Positions 1,332 to 13,859 of a stretch of DNA of 20,192 nt are shown in pieces. The notes beneath the pieces are model-generated. The model ran no database searches, was not told where the DNA came from, and saw only the letters and a list, made by a program, of their open reading frames with translations. The stretch covers positions 1 to 20,192 of IMG/VR virus record IMGVR_UViG_3300005664_000139. One strand, given 5' to 3'. Origin of the DNA: a virus. Made by a program: the position numbers and the translations under genes. Numbering within the stretch: the stretch's first letter is position 1; each line of letters opens with the position of its first letter.

Positions 1332-1535
1332 TTATTTTATTTTTACGCCGTGTTGATTTAAAAGGACACGGGCCTTTTCTAAGTCACTATTGTTGATTAT
1401 TTCAGCAACCTCTTCCCAATTATCTACAGTATTACCTGAATTTACAAAATCAATAGATTTCATAATTCCACGCCAAACATACCTAATCAATTCCTCACTA
1501 GAAGCCCAATAATTAGATAAAGTCCTATATTCTAT
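1332..1535 (-). CDS. COOH-NH2 amidoligase, exon 3
   Basis: This is the C-terminal exon of the amidoligase (67 codons plus stop), beginning IEYRTLSNYW, a motif strongly conserved in the phage COOH-NH2 ligase family (glutamine-synthetase/GCS-like fold). An open frame does extend upstream to a TTG at 1538, but those bases belong to the intron end. No ATG or other good start exists, and an isolated 68-residue protein starting in the middle of a conserved motif makes no sense alone. Joining codon 1535 to exon 2 gives YG-IEYRTLSNYW in frame. The exon boundary is set by the candidate terminal G of the intron (1536) just after a P9 hairpin. Confidence 0.82.
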   Translation of the reverse strand: MEYRTLSNYWASSEELIRYVWRGIMKSIDFVNSGNTVDNWEEVAEIINNSDLEKARVLLNQHGVKIK

Positions 1536-1667
1536 CAAGCAGGTTCTCTCCTACTTAGACTTTCCCTTCACCCTCGTCTTTACGTTAGGGGTGCGCCGTC
1601 AAGTCGTTGCACACTTCCATACAATACTATATCTTAGTAACATCCCACCACATTTTTTCTTGTGATG

Positions 1668-2612
1668 CTACTCCTTAGTATCAAGGGTTGGCTCAGGATT
1701 CCCAACGCTGGTTCCCTGAATTTGACGCAGTTTCATCAGACTATTTCTAATCTGACAGGCATTATTGTACTTTCGATTCATGAAAGTACAAGCGTTAAAA
1801 TACAATAAACATATTAAATTTAGAACACTACTCTGTTTATTTATTTCTAAATAGTGTATATTTTTTTCTCCTTGAATCTTAGTGTGTCTGGAGAATTCTA
1901 TAAGATTTTTTGTTAAAAATGCAGAAATTTGCTCAATATGTACTAAAGAAGCTGATACCAAACATATTCTATCTTGTTTGGGATCAATATACCCATCACC
2001 TTCTATGTATCCTCTCATATAAGGAAAAGACAATGGGAACAAAGTCTCTAGTGTAAAAGTTTTGTTTTCTGTAATTCCTAAACTTTTTAAAAATTCTGCT
2101 ATTTCAGCGTTTCTAAAACTTATAGAAAGTTGCTTAAATTTTTTGTGATGTATTGTTTCGCGGATATTTATTTTAGGATTTCCTAAAAAATCACGAAATT
2201 TTTCTAAAACATCCCTATCTTTTTCGGCTAATGATAGAGATATTCTATTTTTATGCACACACCCATCACTTGCTAACCAACCTAGCCAATATTGAACATC
2301 TTCTCTACTTAAATCAGAGAATACATTTTCAGTCACAAGTCGCCTAGATTTTCTATTCTCACCAATAATTCCTCTCTTTATATAAGGCTCAGAACAAAAG
2401 AATATCCTTGCTATCTCAGCAACACTAAACCCATTGTTGTAAAGATTGATAGCTTTTTCTCTGTCTAAATCACTTAATTGAGTAATTCTATGAGGAAGTT
2501 TAAGACTTTTTCTAAATTTTTCTATTTCGGGTACAGTCATACCCATTTCTTTTGCTATTCTAGAATCGGTATATTGTAAATTATACAATTCTAAAAATTT
2601 TTGTTGTTCCAT
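1668..2612 (-). CDS. LAGLIDADG homing endonuclease inside intron 2
   Basis: This 314-residue protein has two LAGLIDADG-type helices, YWLGWLASDGC (about residues 108-118) and YMRGYIEGDGYI (about 197-208), each ending with the acidic residue that binds the catalytic metal. So it is a single-chain, two-repeat endonuclease. The N-terminus carries one or two helix-turn-helix-like segments (about residues 10-40 and 45-80, ending EIARIFFCSEPYIKRGI), probably DNA-binding. It lies wholly inside the group I intron, and a Bacteroidota-type promoter sits just upstream, so it is probably expressed separately from the amidoligase. Its last 20 or so codons read through the P3-P6 part of the ribozyme core, so the C-terminal tail is probably not under protein-level selection. 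Confidence 0.93.
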   Translation of the reverse strand: MEQQKFLELYNLQYTDSRIAKEMGMTVPEIEKFRKSLKLPHRITQLSDLDREKAINLYNNGFSVAEIARIFFCSEPYIKRGIIGENRKSRRLVTENVFSDLSREDVQYWLGWLASDGCVHKNRISLSLAEKDRDVLEKFRDFLGNPKINIRETIHHKKFKQLSISFRNAEIAEFLKSLGITENKTFTLETLFPLSFPYMRGYIEGDGYIDPKQDRICLVSASLVHIEQISAFLTKNLIEFSRHTKIQGEKNIHYLEINKQSSVLNLICLLYFNACTFMNRKYNNACQIRNSLMKLRQIQGTSVGNPEPTLDTKE

Positions 2613-2628
2613 GTTGTACTTATTGGTA

Positions 2629-2659
2629 CAAATATACGAACAAAAAGTAATTATAGCAA
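2629..2659 (-). promoter_or_regulatory. Bacteroidota-type promoter for the intronic endonuclease
   Basis: On the minus strand, TATATTTG (2636-2629) matches the -7 element TAnnTTTG and TTG (2659-2657) lies 20 bases upstream. The ATG of the endonuclease is 16 bases beyond. Placement inside the intron, just before the ORF, makes a chance match less likely. No start-site data can be seen. Confidence 0.6.
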
Positions 2660-2710
2660 GAGATATTTTGTTTATTGTAGTGTTTTTTTTCTTCTACCAT
2701 TTAAATCAGG

Positions 2711-2875
2711 ACCATACTCTTTCAAGCGGATGCAACTAGCTTTACCATAAAGCTCCCTACGTTTAGTCACAGGTTCCAAAAATAGCATTGGCAAACCTAA
2801 AAATAAGTCCATAGCTGCTATTAATTGTAAACCTACCTCTAAGTCAAATCCTGGCCAAGCCATATGAAGGTGTCC
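2711..2875 (-). CDS. COOH-NH2 amidoligase, exon 2
   Basis: This 55-codon middle exon encodes GHLHMAWPGFDLEVG, then AMDLFLGLPMLFLEP, then TKRRELYGKASCIRLKEYG. These match the family pattern of a GGH(I/L)H strand, a DLFLG(V/L)P helix and a RRELYGKAG loop that binds nucleotide or substrate. The frame runs on past 2711 for 12 non-family codons to a stop at 2672, which is intron sequence. The first in-frame ATG (2863) lies within the conserved motif, so it is not a real start. The exon begins at GGA (2875) directly after the intron's terminal G and ends at GGT (2711). Confidence 0.85.
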
Positions 2876-3157
2876 CCTTCCTTGTTACCCTATAAGCTTT
2901 TTATCTCATAGTTCTATAGCTACATTTCACTCGCTATAGTTCGGCATATATTTTCACCCAACAGACTGTTGGGGCGCGCACTCTTGGTTGAATTATATTT
3001 ATTCATCAACTATGCTCTACGGTGTTAGAAAGCCTTTCGTTATCCTTCTAATTACCTCGGTATTTAAAATAATTCTTTTAGAATTAACTGAAATTTTTAT
3101 TCACCGATTTTACGCGATTTTGCTCACAAATTACTTTATGAGGTGGCAGACATTTTT
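2876..3157 (-). ncRNA. Group I intron 1 in the amidoligase gene (no ORF)
   Basis: This compact 282-nt intron has both splice sites defined by RNA pairing. The exon end GTGGT (3162-3158) can pair with the internal guide GCCAC (3147-3143), leaving the U-G pair at the cut. The adjacent guide bases TGTCT (3152-3148) can pair with the start of exon 2, GGACA, as P10. Candidate core pairings are P4 CGGTG (3106-3102) with CACCG (3024-3020) and P7 CATAGTT (3014-3008) with AACTATG (2913-2907). Additional hairpins are CCCAACA/TGTTGGG (2973-2957) and CTATAGC/GCTATAG (2939-2914). The intron ends in G at 2876. It carries no endonuclease, so it depends on another nuclease or is no longer mobile. Confidence 0.82.
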
Positions 3158-3568
3158 ACCACAACTCCTGAACATAATATCATCAACTTCAGGTTTATTA
3201 TTAACACTCCTAGTACGAGCATTATAATCCTGATCACAACCTAAAGTCATTGCATTTTCAGTGGAGAGTTCTTCAGCACTAAATTCTCTACATGGATAAA
3301 TATCTACTTCTAAATCCTTGTCTTTGACATAATCTGATATATGATTTAACATATATTGGATTTCTTTGACAAATTCATCTTCTGATACAACTGGATTAAT
3401 TGTAAATTCAGAACTAACATTATCTAAAGATAATGTTCTAAAACCCTCTACGACATGAGGATTATATTTTTCCCCAGGAATAATCCCCTCCGATGATACT
3501 GGCACACCTTCTTTATTTTTTAAGAAGACTTCAATATCTGAACCGATTGTTATATTATTTATTAACAT
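3158..3568 (-). CDS. COOH-NH2 amidoligase (phage type 2), exon 1
   Basis: This N-terminal exon (137 codons) begins MLINNITIGSDIEVFLKN, where GSDIE(V/L)F is the first metal-binding strand of the glutamine-synthetase/GCS-like amidoligase fold. It continues with EGIIPG, LDNVSSEFTINPV and GCDQDYNA, all typical of the phage COOH-NH2 ligase family. The frame ends at 3131, eight codons into the intron, just where the family needs GGH-H. Joined with the other two exons it makes a 259-residue protein, a normal length. The family condenses a carboxylate with an amine using ATP. The start overlaps the preceding gene by 14 bp, consistent with translational coupling. Unspliced, the product would be truncated and inactive. 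Confidence 0.88.
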
Positions 3569-4193: not shown

Positions 4194-4839
4194 TTTGCTT
4201 ATTTCTTATTGTGTTAACCGCTTCTCGAATCACGTCTCTACAACTATTCTCATATTCTTTAATGTAAGTTCCACCCAAGTAACCTAGACAAAAAAGAATA
4301 TTTTCAGTTTTCCAGTAAATAACATCTATGTTTTCAATAGACTTATCGTCATCTACTTTAGTGCGTATATAGGTTCTATTTTCAAGATTCCACCCTTTAG
4401 CAATAACCAAACAATCATCAATAATACTTGAAAAATCAATAGCGAAAGGGTGTGTAGAATCACTGCATGCAGTAGTATTATTGTAAAACATTACTGCGTG
4501 ATTAACTCTATTACCTGGACTAGATACTAAAGGTAAATCATATTTTTCAGCCAAATAAAGTGCTGCACCAGAAACAGCTACTACTAGAGTTTTTTCAAGA
4601 TCTCTTGTTTCAACAATACTTTTAATAAATGTATCATTAGAACTTCTATTAGGGGATTGGTAATCATTATACATTCCCAATCCTGTGTAAAGTATTACTT
4701 CAGCATCTTTTGGTTCTTCTACCAAGGTGAGGTCTTTTTGGGCTGTTTCATAATTATTATGAAAATAACCTGGCTTACTAAGCCACCCTGTATGGTATGG
4801 TGCAGAATGATTAATTGCTTTTGGAATATAAACTTTCAT
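4168..4839 (-). CDS. Degenerate class I glutamine amidotransferase-like protein
   Basis: This 223-residue protein appears to be a diverged paralogue of the next-upstream amidotransferase. VILYTGLGMYND (about 48-59) aligns with VVFFTGGEDVSP of the neighbour. LVVAVSGAALYLA (85-97) aligns with the nucleophile elbow MFSVCRGFQFIS, and IDVIYWKTENILFCLGYLGG (171-190) aligns with the strand ending in FHPE. The nucleophilic cysteine and the catalytic His-Pro-Glu are both absent, so glutaminase activity is not expected. The alignment is by eye and weak outside these blocks. A pseudoenzyme partner of the active GAT, or a carrier of a different chemistry, is possible. It overlaps both neighbours by about 26-29 bp. 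Confidence 0.72.
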   Translation of the reverse strand: MKVYIPKAINHSAPYHTGWLSKPGYFHNNYETAQKDLTLVEEPKDAEVILYTGLGMYNDYQSPNRSSNDTFIKSIVETRDLEKTLVVAVSGAALYLAEKYDLPLVSSPGNRVNHAVMFYNNTTACSDSTHPFAIDFSSIIDDCLVIAKGWNLENRTYIRTKVDDDKSIENIDVIYWKTENILFCLGYLGGTYIKEYENSCRDVIREAVNTIRNKQNASSYPRD

Positions 4840-5494
4840 ATAGTTTGTTATTTAAAAAATCATTGAATAGGTTTCTGCAATACTGAATGTATTCAATATC
4901 TTTTGGGTCATTACTGTGAGTCCTGTATTCTGGATGAAATTGAACACCTAAACAATTAGTCTTAGGGTAAAATACAATTTCAGTTTCTTTATCCATTTTA
5001 ACATGTCCCCCATCATTATCATAAAGATATTTAACATCCCGTGAATTTTCTACCCAACCTATTAGTCGGTAATCTTCTTTTGGTAATTCACCTAAATATA
5101 CCATTTGGTGATGTGAACAGGATACTTGAATCTGTTTTCCATCTACAGTCACCATATTCTGAGAGCCACCATGTCCATAAAAATCCTGAATCATTTTAGC
5201 TCCCGACATAACAGATATGAATTGAAATCCTCTGCATACACTAAACATCTTTTTATTTAATGCTAGGGCCTCATTAAAATATATTACTTCTTGTTCGTCT
5301 CTACGACTATTTGTGTAAGAAGCTAAATTCTGATGATTATATAACTCTGGAGAAACATCTTCTCCTCCAGTAAAGAATACAACATCACTTTCTTCTATTG
5401 AGTCTACAAGTTGTACATTTTCCATCCAATTGACGTAGCTCGCATCGCCAATTAGGAATATTTTTGTTTTACCAATTAATTGTTTTTTTTCCAT
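4811..5494 (-). CDS. Class I glutamine amidotransferase domain protein
   Basis: This 227-residue single-domain protein has the full triad of class I (triad) glutamine amidotransferases. The nucleophile is Cys87 in SVCRGFQF, and His187 and Glu189 lie in QFHPEY. An oxyanion/entry motif TGGEDVSPELY sits at 42-52, as in gamma-glutamyl-hydrolase/PuuD-like members. Such domains hydrolyse glutamine to deliver ammonia, or cleave gamma-glutamyl amides. It overlaps ung by 26 bp upstream and its degenerate paralogue by 29 bp downstream. With an amidoligase and ATP-grasp in the same operon, it could supply ammonia or trim a gamma-glutamyl intermediate. Which of the two cannot be told here. Confidence 0.9.
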   Translation of the reverse strand: MEKKQLIGKTKIFLIGDASYVNWMENVQLVDSIEESDVVFFTGGEDVSPELYNHQNLASYTNSRRDEQEVIYFNEALALNKKMFSVCRGFQFISVMSGAKMIQDFYGHGGSQNMVTVDGKQIQVSCSHHQMVYLGELPKEDYRLIGWVENSRDVKYLYDNDGGHVKMDKETEIVFYPKTNCLGVQFHPEYRTHSNDPKDIEYIQYCRNLFNDFLNNKLYESLYSKSN

Positions 5495-6224: not shown

Positions 6225-7202
6225 CTACTCTAAATGGTAGTAGGTTTTTAAATAATCTGTTAGCCATTTTTCTGGTTCCTCTTTATCCATTTTCACCCAA
6301 TCGCCAAAATCTTTAGGTTTATTTTCTGGATTACAAATGCCTTCCAGTCCATATTCCTTTTTATATTTTAACAACATTTCTTTTCCCAGTTTGTCATTAT
6401 CCATATATGGAATGACATATTTGAAACGCATTTTCAATAAATTCAATGCATTTTCACTAATCATAATTCCTTCACCACGCACACCAACAGAACTAAATCC
6501 ATAAGAATACATGCTAAAGGATTCTTTCATGGCCTTTTGTATGAAGCAAACAGTACCGCAAGAAGGTAATTGTTCCCAACCATCCAAAAGTCCCCCATAA
6601 TAATTGTTTCTAAATTTATCTTCTTTTTTAGAAAAAGGTCGATAAATTTTTATTTTGTCTTTTTGCCGATACCTATAAATAGGCTCACTCTCTTTAGTGA
6701 CTTTCCATATCTCATTATTGATCCAAACTCTCTCACATTTTCTAATGTTAAAGAATTTTAATAGTCTGAGAGTTTCTGATTCACTTTTTACATATTGCGA
6801 CCAGTATTGAATATCTTGATCAGCAAATGGTATTAGTGTCACTTTAATATCACACTCTTTTTTTTGAGTGGTGATAATTTCTCTATTATAAACAAATTTC
6901 AACTGTTTTTCTAAATCTGAATGAATCCTGTTTATAATTTTTGGAAATTCCACACCAGTTGCCATAGAAGCAACATCGAAACAATTTAAATGTGTTTTAG
7001 TATTGGCATAATCCACAAAATAAAGTACCCCTGAAGAGCTATATAAGAAAAAACAACCTTTTCGAGTATCCCCACTTCGTAAGGGATTGATAAATTTATC
7101 TTTAGTGTTAATTTCATAACCTAAGTAGTATTTCATAATACTTTCTTGAGATACTAATTTTAACAAATCCTCTTTATTAAGATTATTTTCTATTATAATC
7201 AT
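6225..7202 (-). CDS. DnaG-type DNA primase (Toprim)
   Basis: This 325-residue protein has a divergent zinc-domain-like N-terminus (residues 35-85: FINPLRSGD...GCFFLYSSSGVLYFVDY, with most zinc ligands gone). A middle segment with IKIYRPF and KFRNN resembles the RNA-polymerase subdomain of bacterial primases. A Toprim region follows, CFIQKAMKESFSMYSYGF at about 219-236 and VIPYMDNDKLGKEM at 263-276, with the acidic metal residues Asp268 and Asp270. It ends in a PKDFGDWVK motif. Its role would be RNA primer synthesis for lagging-strand replication. It starts 4 bp inside the end of the 94-residue gene. The helicase-binding domain is absent, in keeping with short phage primases. Confidence 0.82.
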   Translation of the reverse strand: MIIIENNLNKEDLLKLVSQESIMKYYLGYEINTKDKFINPLRSGDTRKGCFFLYSSSGVLYFVDYANTKTHLNCFDVASMATGVEFPKIINRIHSDLEKQLKFVYNREIITTQKKECDIKVTLIPFADQDIQYWSQYVKSESETLRLLKFFNIRKCERVWINNEIWKVTKESEPIYRYRQKDKIKIYRPFSKKEDKFRNNYYGGLLDGWEQLPSCGTVCFIQKAMKESFSMYSYGFSSVGVRGEGIMISENALNLLKMRFKYVIPYMDNDKLGKEMLLKYKKEYGLEGICNPENKPKDFGDWVKMDKEEPEKWLTDYLKTYYHLE

Positions 7203-7483
7203 ATAAGAACTTTTATTTCCTCAGTATATTGTAAGAGCATAAATTTTGTAAATCTACCAAATGGTAGATTTGGATAATCACTCCACCTAGGATAATTTTG
7301 TAAAAAGAGCTCCAAACGCTTTCCTCTGTAGTGATTTAACCCCATTGAATATATATCTAGCATTTCTCGCGAAGTATCCAAATCTCCAACAAGATACTGT
7401 TCTAGTCTGGACTTCAAATATTGTAAATGGGGGCCGTAATTTGTAGATAATTTTGCGATTTCTTCTTGCTTTAATAATTTCAT
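7199..7483 (-). CDS. Small paralogous protein B (MKLLKQEEI, WSDYPNLPF)
   Basis: This 94-residue protein of unknown function is clearly related to the gene just upstream. Both begin MK(I/L)L-Q-(D/E)EI and both end with (F/Y)P-WS-YP-LPF- F. The shared spacing and similar length indicate a tandem duplication. No enzyme motif, membrane segment or zinc site is visible; it looks helical and soluble. It overlaps its paralogue by 4 bp and the primase by 4 bp, so all three are probably translated together. A role with the primase or at the fork is plausible only from position. A 9-bp inverted repeat lies inside the gene at 7250-7271. Confidence 0.85.
   Translation of the reverse strand: MKLLKQEEIAKLSTNYGPHLQYLKSRLEQYLVGDLDTSREMLDIYSMGLNHYRGKRLELFLQNYPRWSDYPNLPFGRFTKFMLLQYTEEIKVLI
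7250..7271. repeat. 9-bp inverted repeat inside the small paralogue gene
   Basis: AAATCTACC (7250-7258) and GGTAGATTT (7263-7271) are perfect complements with a 4-base loop, inside the 94-residue gene. It may be a chance hairpin, since it encodes the conserved NLPFGRF part. Confidence 0.45.
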
Positions 7484-7755
7484 ATTATTGTAGTTCCAAA
7501 AGAAAGAGGTAAACTCATAACAAAATCCGCAAATGGTAATTCTGGATACTGACTCCAGTCAGGAAAGGCTTTTACAAAAGTTGATACTGAATAGGATGCA
7601 TACTCTAAAATGTTTTCTGAATATATCGCCATCATTTGATCAATTTTTTCTCTATCTTTAATGATACGTTCTAACTCTACTCGTATCCCATTAAGAATTT
7701 CTTTCTCTGAACTATTGCGAAGATTTCTAATTTCGTCCTGTGTTAATATTTTCAT
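7480..7755 (-). CDS. Small paralogous protein A (MKILTQDEI, WSQYPELPF)
   Basis: This 91-residue protein is the paralogue of the following gene. The conserved parts are the N-terminal MKILTQDEI and the C-terminal FPDWSQYPELPFADF. The middle is charged and predicted helical (about residues 18-50). No known domain was recognised. Its start codon is only about 7 bases beyond the T-run of an intrinsic terminator after the ssb-like gene, so it has no room for its own promoter. Its expression must come from read-through of that terminator. Its N-terminal nine residues are also shared with the 82-residue gene at 10537-10785. Confidence 0.85.
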   Translation of the reverse strand: MKILTQDEIRNLRNSSEKEILNGIRVELERIIKDREKIDQMMAIYSENILEYASYSVSTFVKAFPDWSQYPELPFADFVMSLPLSFGTTII

Positions 7756-13108: not shown

Positions 13109-13859
13109 CTGGATATAGTATTGAATTTAAATCACTTTGAAAATATTCTTCAGTATCAACATTCATTATTGTTACTTTACCTTCTTTATATCCACCACCA
13201 GTATCAATATTCCAAATTACTGATGCTTTTTTAGGTAAATTGGTTTTCCAATTAATCGTTGGAGTATGTCCAATAAATATTTTCTTAAAGTTGTCTTTTA
13301 TTTTATATGGGTATGATGTTTCACTCCAAGATAAAGCAGAACTCCATAAATCCCTATCCCATAGGAATATGGATGGTTTTTGTTCTTCTACCAAGGAATG
13401 TCTATTAAATCCACCGTGAGTAAAACAAATATCATCTTCCACAAAGTATGATATTGATGAATGTAATAAGTCTCTATGGGTTTTTGGAATATCCATGAAA
13501 GTGAGATTAGTTCGAAAACCTCCCATATCAGGCATACAAAAAATATCCCTGTCACTATGTTTAGCATAATTTTTAATTACTGCATCACCTCCATGATTCC
13601 AATCGAACCCATGTCTTCCTGTGTTCATCCAATCTAGAAATATATCGTCATGATTACCTCTAATAAAAATCAAGTTTTCTATTGTTAGTAATTCTTCAAT
13701 ACATTCATAAGATTCTGAATATCCATCAAAAACATCACCTAAAAATATAAGTCTATCTTTTTTCTTATCGAAGCCACTTCTTTCAAGTACTTGCAATAGT
13801 CCCCTGTAGTTACCGTGTAAATCGCCTAAGGTGAAAGTTCTTACTTTTTTATTTTCCAT
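13092..13859 (-). CDS. PPP-family metallophosphatase
   Basis: This 255-residue protein has the dinuclear-metal motifs of calcineurin-like phosphatases in order: GDLHG (12-16), GDVFDG (41-46), GNHDD (68-72) and a later CFTHGGF. Near the C-terminus come GHTPTINW and the DTGGG motif. The spacing matches lambda-type serine/threonine phosphatases and diadenosine tetraphosphate hydrolases; which substrate it uses is undetermined. Such a phage protein could reverse host protein phosphorylation or clear dinucleotide alarmones. It lies immediately downstream of a 140-residue unknown and a HAD phosphatase, and it overlaps the small 51-residue gene. Confidence 0.93.
   Translation of the reverse strand: MENKKVRTFTLGDLHGNYRGLLQVLERSGFDKKKDRLIFLGDVFDGYSESYECIEELLTIENLIFIRGNHDDIFLDWMNTGRHGFDWNHGGDAVIKNYAKHSDRDIFCMPDMGGFRTNLTFMDIPKTHRDLLHSSISYFVEDDICFTHGGFNRHSLVEEQKPSIFLWDRDLWSSALSWSETSYPYKIKDNFKKIFIGHTPTINWKTNLPKKASVIWNIDTGGGYKEGKVTIMNVDTEEYFQSDLNSILYPDERGR

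Follow-up and report, generated by a model that had tools for sequence, protein, structure and literature searches.

Three separate frames on the minus strand of a phage genome fragment each resemble part of a COOH.NH2 amidoligase, which raises the question of whether they make up one gene and, if so, how a continuous ligase would be produced from it. The window (the whole stretch of DNA analysed) is a complete IMG/VR virus record of 20,192 bases, and a single one; no near-identical relative was found in IMG/VR. Its replicative helicase (12499-11363) matched 46 phage records, nearly all from Bacteroides or uncultured crAss-like phages, the remaining ones being two Cellulophaga phages and Leptolyngbya phage Lbo-JY46. 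Based on these helicase matches, the window is most likely a fragment from a crAss-like phage of Bacteroidota.

On the same strand, a RimK-like ATP-grasp ligase (392-1330, PF08443 E 1.4e-6, phrog_2599) lies directly downstream of the amidoligase, and a class I glutamine amidotransferase is encoded at 4811-5494 (minus strand, PF07722 E 4.6e-17, phrog_7218). The three genes are predicted to form one peptide-modification cluster, and the amidoligase has the same two neighbours in cr108_1 and Lbo-JY46. Elsewhere in the window, two adjacent and overlapping ORFs (7199-7483 and 7480-7755) look like paralogues, as from a tandem duplication.

The amidoligase gene in three exons

Searching the window with the phrog_3815 profile yielded three separate, ordered matches on the minus strand, at 3562-3149 (profile positions 3-141), 2875-2708 (139-197) and 1535-1341 (197-266). 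The corresponding exons are exon 1 (3158-3568, residues 1-137, ending in AGT TGT GGT; phrog_3815 3-141, alignment A1), exon 2 (2711-2875, residues 138-192, GHLHMAW...KEYG; phrog_3815 139-197, PF14395) and exon 3 (1332-1535, residues 193-259 followed by the stop; phrog_3815 197-266). Once joined, the 259-residue product matched phrog_3815 over positions 3-266 of 268 (E 2.2e-64), in agreement with the original prediction that the frames encode successive portions of a single COOH.NH2 amidoligase. The match to PF14395 that had been anticipated for the joined product was also obtained (E 2.6e-11, above the cut-off, partial); among the single frames only exon 2 reached this family, just at the cut-off, with exons 1 and 3 below it.

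When aligned with nine intact phage homologues, the joined product shows no gap where exon 1 meets exon 2 (SCG/GHLHM), and its exon 2/exon 3 join (KEYG/IEYRTL) is colinear with them. The exon coordinates first proposed proved exact and both joins are in frame. Both also fit the rules for group I introns, a U before the 5′ site and a G at the intron end. A single-protein search of IMG/VR returned no close relative of the spliced ligase, and no intron-less close relative of the window's own amidoligase was found. We conclude, with high confidence, that this is one amidoligase gene into which two group I introns, each of a different type, are inserted, and that it would be spliced to a 259-residue ligase.

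The same alignment bears on whether the gene is instead a decaying pseudogene, its introns dead and its ligase no longer made. An accessory gene with two insertions might be suspected of this, the RF00028 score of intron 2 is low (29.4 bits), and two otherwise invariant columns are altered, both in exon 2 (S167M and G184S). However, 31 of the 33 columns invariant among the nine intact homologues are retained (15/15, 11/13 and 5/5 in exons 1, 2 and 3), all exons are free of frameshifts and stops, and a methionine at position 167 also occurs in an intact amidoligase, L017. The P7 and P3 helices of intron 1 are moreover intact, and the ends of both introns obey the splice-site rules. We therefore hold decay of the gene to be highly improbable. 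An assembly chimera of the metagenomic contig, which a single record with no near-identical relative could bring to mind, has a negligible probability: the insertions start as well as stop exactly at the positions given by the splice rules, in frame, and the same kind of insertion is present in the same gene in four further contigs (see below).

Intron 1 belongs to a phage family not covered by Rfam Intron_gpI

Intron 1 (2876-3157, minus strand, 282 nt) separates the two adjacent glycine codons in SCG/GHLHM. It had been described as having neither a group I core nor an endonuclease gene; the second part stands, as the intron contains no reading frame, while the first does not. By blastn, the segment 2882-3064 is 68-75% identical to stretches that separate annotated gene pieces in other phages: terL of Staphylococcus phage vB-SscS-F1, terminase and helicase regions of crAss-like phages, the polymerase region of Dulem virus 41, and Clostridioides and Leptolyngbya phages. 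A structure from P1 to P10 was written out by hand and tested on an 11-sequence alignment against slid versions of itself. The cells were paired in 82.7% of cases, vs 30-46% in the slid controls, and 51 of the 76 pairs showed compensatory change on both sides. Pairing reached 91-100% in P3, P4, P6, P7, P7.1, P9 and P9.1 (P3 94%, P4 91%, P6 98%, P9 93-100% of cells). P8 is variable in this family, with 54% of cells paired in the 11-sequence alignment and 84% in alignment A8. Pairing was weaker than in the core helices for P1, P10 and P2, as expected, given that P1 and P10 vary with the host exon and that alignment of the 5′ parts is poor.

The P7 helix of intron 1 is formed by 3015-3011 with 2948-2944, with a bulged A3016 and an outer pair G3017-C2943. 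P7 is paired in all sequences, and among the ten other introns the outer pair across the bulge is GC, AU or CG; covariation of the P7 closing pair across a bulged nucleotide is a hallmark of the guanosine site. At the 5′ end (P1 and P10 strand, 3143-3162), exon GUGGU (3162-3158) pairs with GCCAC (3147-3143) in P1, ending on the U.G pair, and this hairpin is present in the minimum-energy fold (z -3.84). For P10, UGUCU (3152-3148) pairs with GGACA of exon 2 (2875-2871), and the terminal G2876 is present.

A covariance model, R1, was built on a 126-position core from the ten other phage introns, with the intron 1 of the window excluded. Run on the window, it gave a single match, to intron 1 (core P6-P7-P7.1-P3′-P8-P7′, 2938-3060, minus strand), with 119.2 bits and E 5.7e-24. 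RF00028 gave no match to intron 1 even at E 10; Rfam Intron_gpI does not cover the intron-1 family. Judged by homology and covariation, intron 1 is a group I intron with a complete core.

Intron 2 and its endonuclease gene

Intron 2 (1536-2710, minus strand, 1175 nt) is inserted at KEYG/IEYRTLSN. Rfam queries with the whole window or with 2.5 kb missed both introns, and a short query recovered this one: RF00028 aligned to 1774-1536 over all of its 253 positions, with 29.4 bits and E 5.7e-6 for a curated cut-off of 50 bits, and terminated exactly at the proposed 3′ site (1536). Of the Intron_gpI matches foreseen for both introns, that of intron 2 was thus obtained, below the cut-off, and that of intron 1 never. 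In the catalytic core (1536-1774, fold z -3.0), P3 is formed by about 1729-1722 with 1602-1592, P7 by 1605-1601 with 1562-1558 and P8 by about 1593-1569, and P9 adjoins the 3′ site. The P8 element, CCCTAACGTAAAGACGAGGG, recurs in other phage introns and adjoins the textbook GAUAUAGUC in several of these; a pattern for the P4-P6 core of intron 2 found no matches. From its RF00028 alignment, the core of intron 2 reads as a canonical group I core.

Both expected bases, U2711 and G1536, are present at the intron ends. A putative P1 (2652-2716, minus strand) would pair UAUGGU (2716-2711) with GCUAUA (2657-2652), ending on a U.G pair; it is a weak candidate seen in sequence, and its 6 bp are not favoured when the region is folded alone. 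The 5′ site is therefore placed by the protein alignment together with the U/G rule.

The gene inside intron 2 (1668-2612, minus strand) encodes a 314 aa LAGLIDADG endonuclease with phage relatives (PF14528 E 1.3e-13, in two stretches), so that both elements first read in this intron, a group I core and a LAGLIDADG gene, are recovered. Its motifs, YWLGWLASDG and YMRGYIEGDG, retain the acidic residues, and its N-terminal segment is HTH-like. The 3′ end of the gene overlaps the P3-P6 strands of the core. A single-protein search of IMG/VR gave no close relative of the endonuclease. At 14 nt upstream of its start lies TATATTTGTA (2627-2636, minus strand), an element of the Bacteroidota -7 type. 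It is a possible, weak candidate for the endonuclease's own promoter, such elements matching the window 4 times vs 3.2 expected by chance. Just upstream of both LAGLIDADG genes of the window we observed TATATTTGTA (2636-2627) or TATCTTTGTA (17247-17238), at a frequency close to chance.

Spliced gene or split enzyme

The three frames could also be translated separately and their pieces assemble into a split enzyme, with no RNA splicing. Split enzymes of this kind are documented for some phage genes split by endonucleases, and the frames of exons 2 and 3 have possible internal starts (ATG 2863 and TTG 1538). The window itself holds what looks like such a gene. Its ribose-phosphate pyrophosphokinase (PRS) is encoded in two parts, matching phrog_619 at positions 6-140 and 146-272, in a region with ORFs at 18549-18085, 18095-17325, 17213-16386 and 16423-15944. 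Between the parts are an uncharacterised ORF and a LAGLIDADG gene, the latter sharing 38 nt with the beginning of the second part. An intron core was looked for there, including with R1, and was not found, which is why PRS looks like a gene split around a free-standing endonuclease. In the amidoligase, however, both intervening stretches have group I cores with fitting ends, translation from ATG 2863 would leave out the conserved GHxH residues, and exon 3 by itself would amount to 67 residues. We regard translation in pieces as very unlikely, and retain splicing of a single amidoligase transcript.

Interrupted amidoligases in other phages

Six-frame translations of amidoligase loci, representing 167 distinct amidoligases, were scanned for interruptions. 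Besides the window, four further interrupted amidoligases were found, all in IMG/VR (L125, L160, L284 and L279). The 5 carriers among 167 should not be read as a frequency, since the sample was picked for resemblance to the window and with a single pattern requiring an intron end. The original prediction had called two introns in this gene unusual; interruption of the amidoligase is in any case not a one-off. The insertions of L125 and L160 lie at the identical codon to that of intron 1, that of L284 lies one codon further in the GGHxH motif, and that of L279 is at the GC[DE] motif. All four match the intron-1-family model, in which L160 is included and the other three are not. LAGLIDADG genes are located in P5 of the L125 and L279 introns. 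No intron at the site of intron 2 was found in the other amidoligases of the sample. A fifth candidate, L259, was rejected, as its frames overlap without an insertion.

A second, different amidoligase gene of L125 (PF12224, 11735-14310) is also interrupted; its parts are separated by an HNH-like ORF together with an intron core (13591-13707, R1 E 4e-4).

An empty allele is available for one of these insertions. Removal of the 1062-nt intron of L279 (2858-3919) leaves a sequence 93% identical to the uninterrupted L296 and gap-free at the junction, a comparison by which the intron boundaries in L279 are confirmed as precise. The differences between the two sequences are concentrated in the 13 bases preceding the insertion site, and this cluster is possibly a co-conversion tract left by homing.

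On the tree of the 167 distinct amidoligases, five changes are required to account for the five carriers, meaning that each stands among uninterrupted relatives. On the intron tree, a single clade of the four introns at the GGH site was rejected (p-AU 0.0005), chiefly because the L125 intron is sister to that of L279, which occupies another site; grouping all five introns found in amidoligases as one clade was not rejected (p 0.11). With carriers scattered and the GGH-site clade rejected, repeated arrival of introns in amidoligase genes is likely, though not proven. Whether group I introns have a preference for the amidoligases of crAss-like phages and their relatives, reaching the active-site GGHxH codons repeatedly and independently and not by one invasion, is in our judgement evenly balanced.

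Intron 1 might be the remnant of an endonuclease-bearing intron that lost its gene, as the flanks of its P5 are similar to the sequences that border the gene in L125. Such a loss is one possibility among others, because L284 has the same flanks and no gene.

Proposed mechanism

Group I splicing is an established two-step reaction. In the minus-strand transcript, each intron would fold within the precursor RNA; guanosine bound in the P7 pocket would lead to a cut after the U of the 5′ exon, and the exons would then be ligated, restoring the ligase frame and giving the 259-residue product. Intron 1 is a gene-less member of the family present in crAss-like phages and in phages of staphylococci, clostridia and Leptolyngbya, and its spread would depend on co-transfer or on an endonuclease encoded elsewhere. 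The endonuclease of intron 2 would cut intron-less alleles, into which the intron would be copied by homing. Splicing in cells, endonuclease activity and homing are all inferred here from sequence. Homing systems prefer conserved sequence, and insertion within codons of conserved motifs fits this known preference (PMC3984707).

Comparison with known systems

Intron 1 resembles introns of crAss-like and staphylococcal phages (vB-SscS-F1 terL, helicase and polymerase regions of crAss-like phages), with a core 68-75% identical and the same P3-P9.1 layout. It differs from them by its location in an amidoligase and by lacking the endonuclease gene that several of these relatives carry. Intron 2 is close to LAGLIDADG introns of the RF00028 type, since it matches the whole model and its P8 element is common to Vibrio and other phage introns, but it scores below the curated cut-off, its endonuclease gene enters the P3-P6 strands, and its insertion site is new.

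A phage protein gene with two group I introns has a precedent in Twort nrdE, according to a title cited in PMC3984707, and Twort terL is annotated in three pieces. The Twort genes serve nucleotide metabolism or packaging, whereas the window has an accessory ligase with two clearly different intron types. Heavy intron loads occur in crAss-like phages and in Jug phages, which are phages of Bacteroidota in which group I introns split many genes. Of the 76 introns predicted in Jug phages, 37 were confirmed by metatranscriptome reads, and the targets named for them include terL, nrdD and DNA polymerase (PMC12363816), compared to an amidoligase here. In full-text literature, with most subscription journals outside the coverage, group I introns were found alongside amidoligase or glutamine amidotransferase in one paper, PMC10580990, and the intron suspected there lies in a DNA polymerase. 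COOH.NH2 ligase added nothing among the papers listed, and no report of this host gene was found. Phage group I introns, and two of them per gene, are already known; the amidoligase as a recurrent host gene is apparently unreported.

These results extend the known host genes of group I introns to an accessory biosynthetic gene of phages. They also point to a family of phage introns that is unseen by the group I model of Rfam and easily recognised with a dedicated one: it would escape annotation pipelines based on Rfam, while R1 detects it with E below 1e-20, and annotators will report intron-bearing ligases as broken or missing. With five interrupted ligases and their uninterrupted relatives, including an empty allele at 93% identity, homing into a catalytic motif becomes directly testable.
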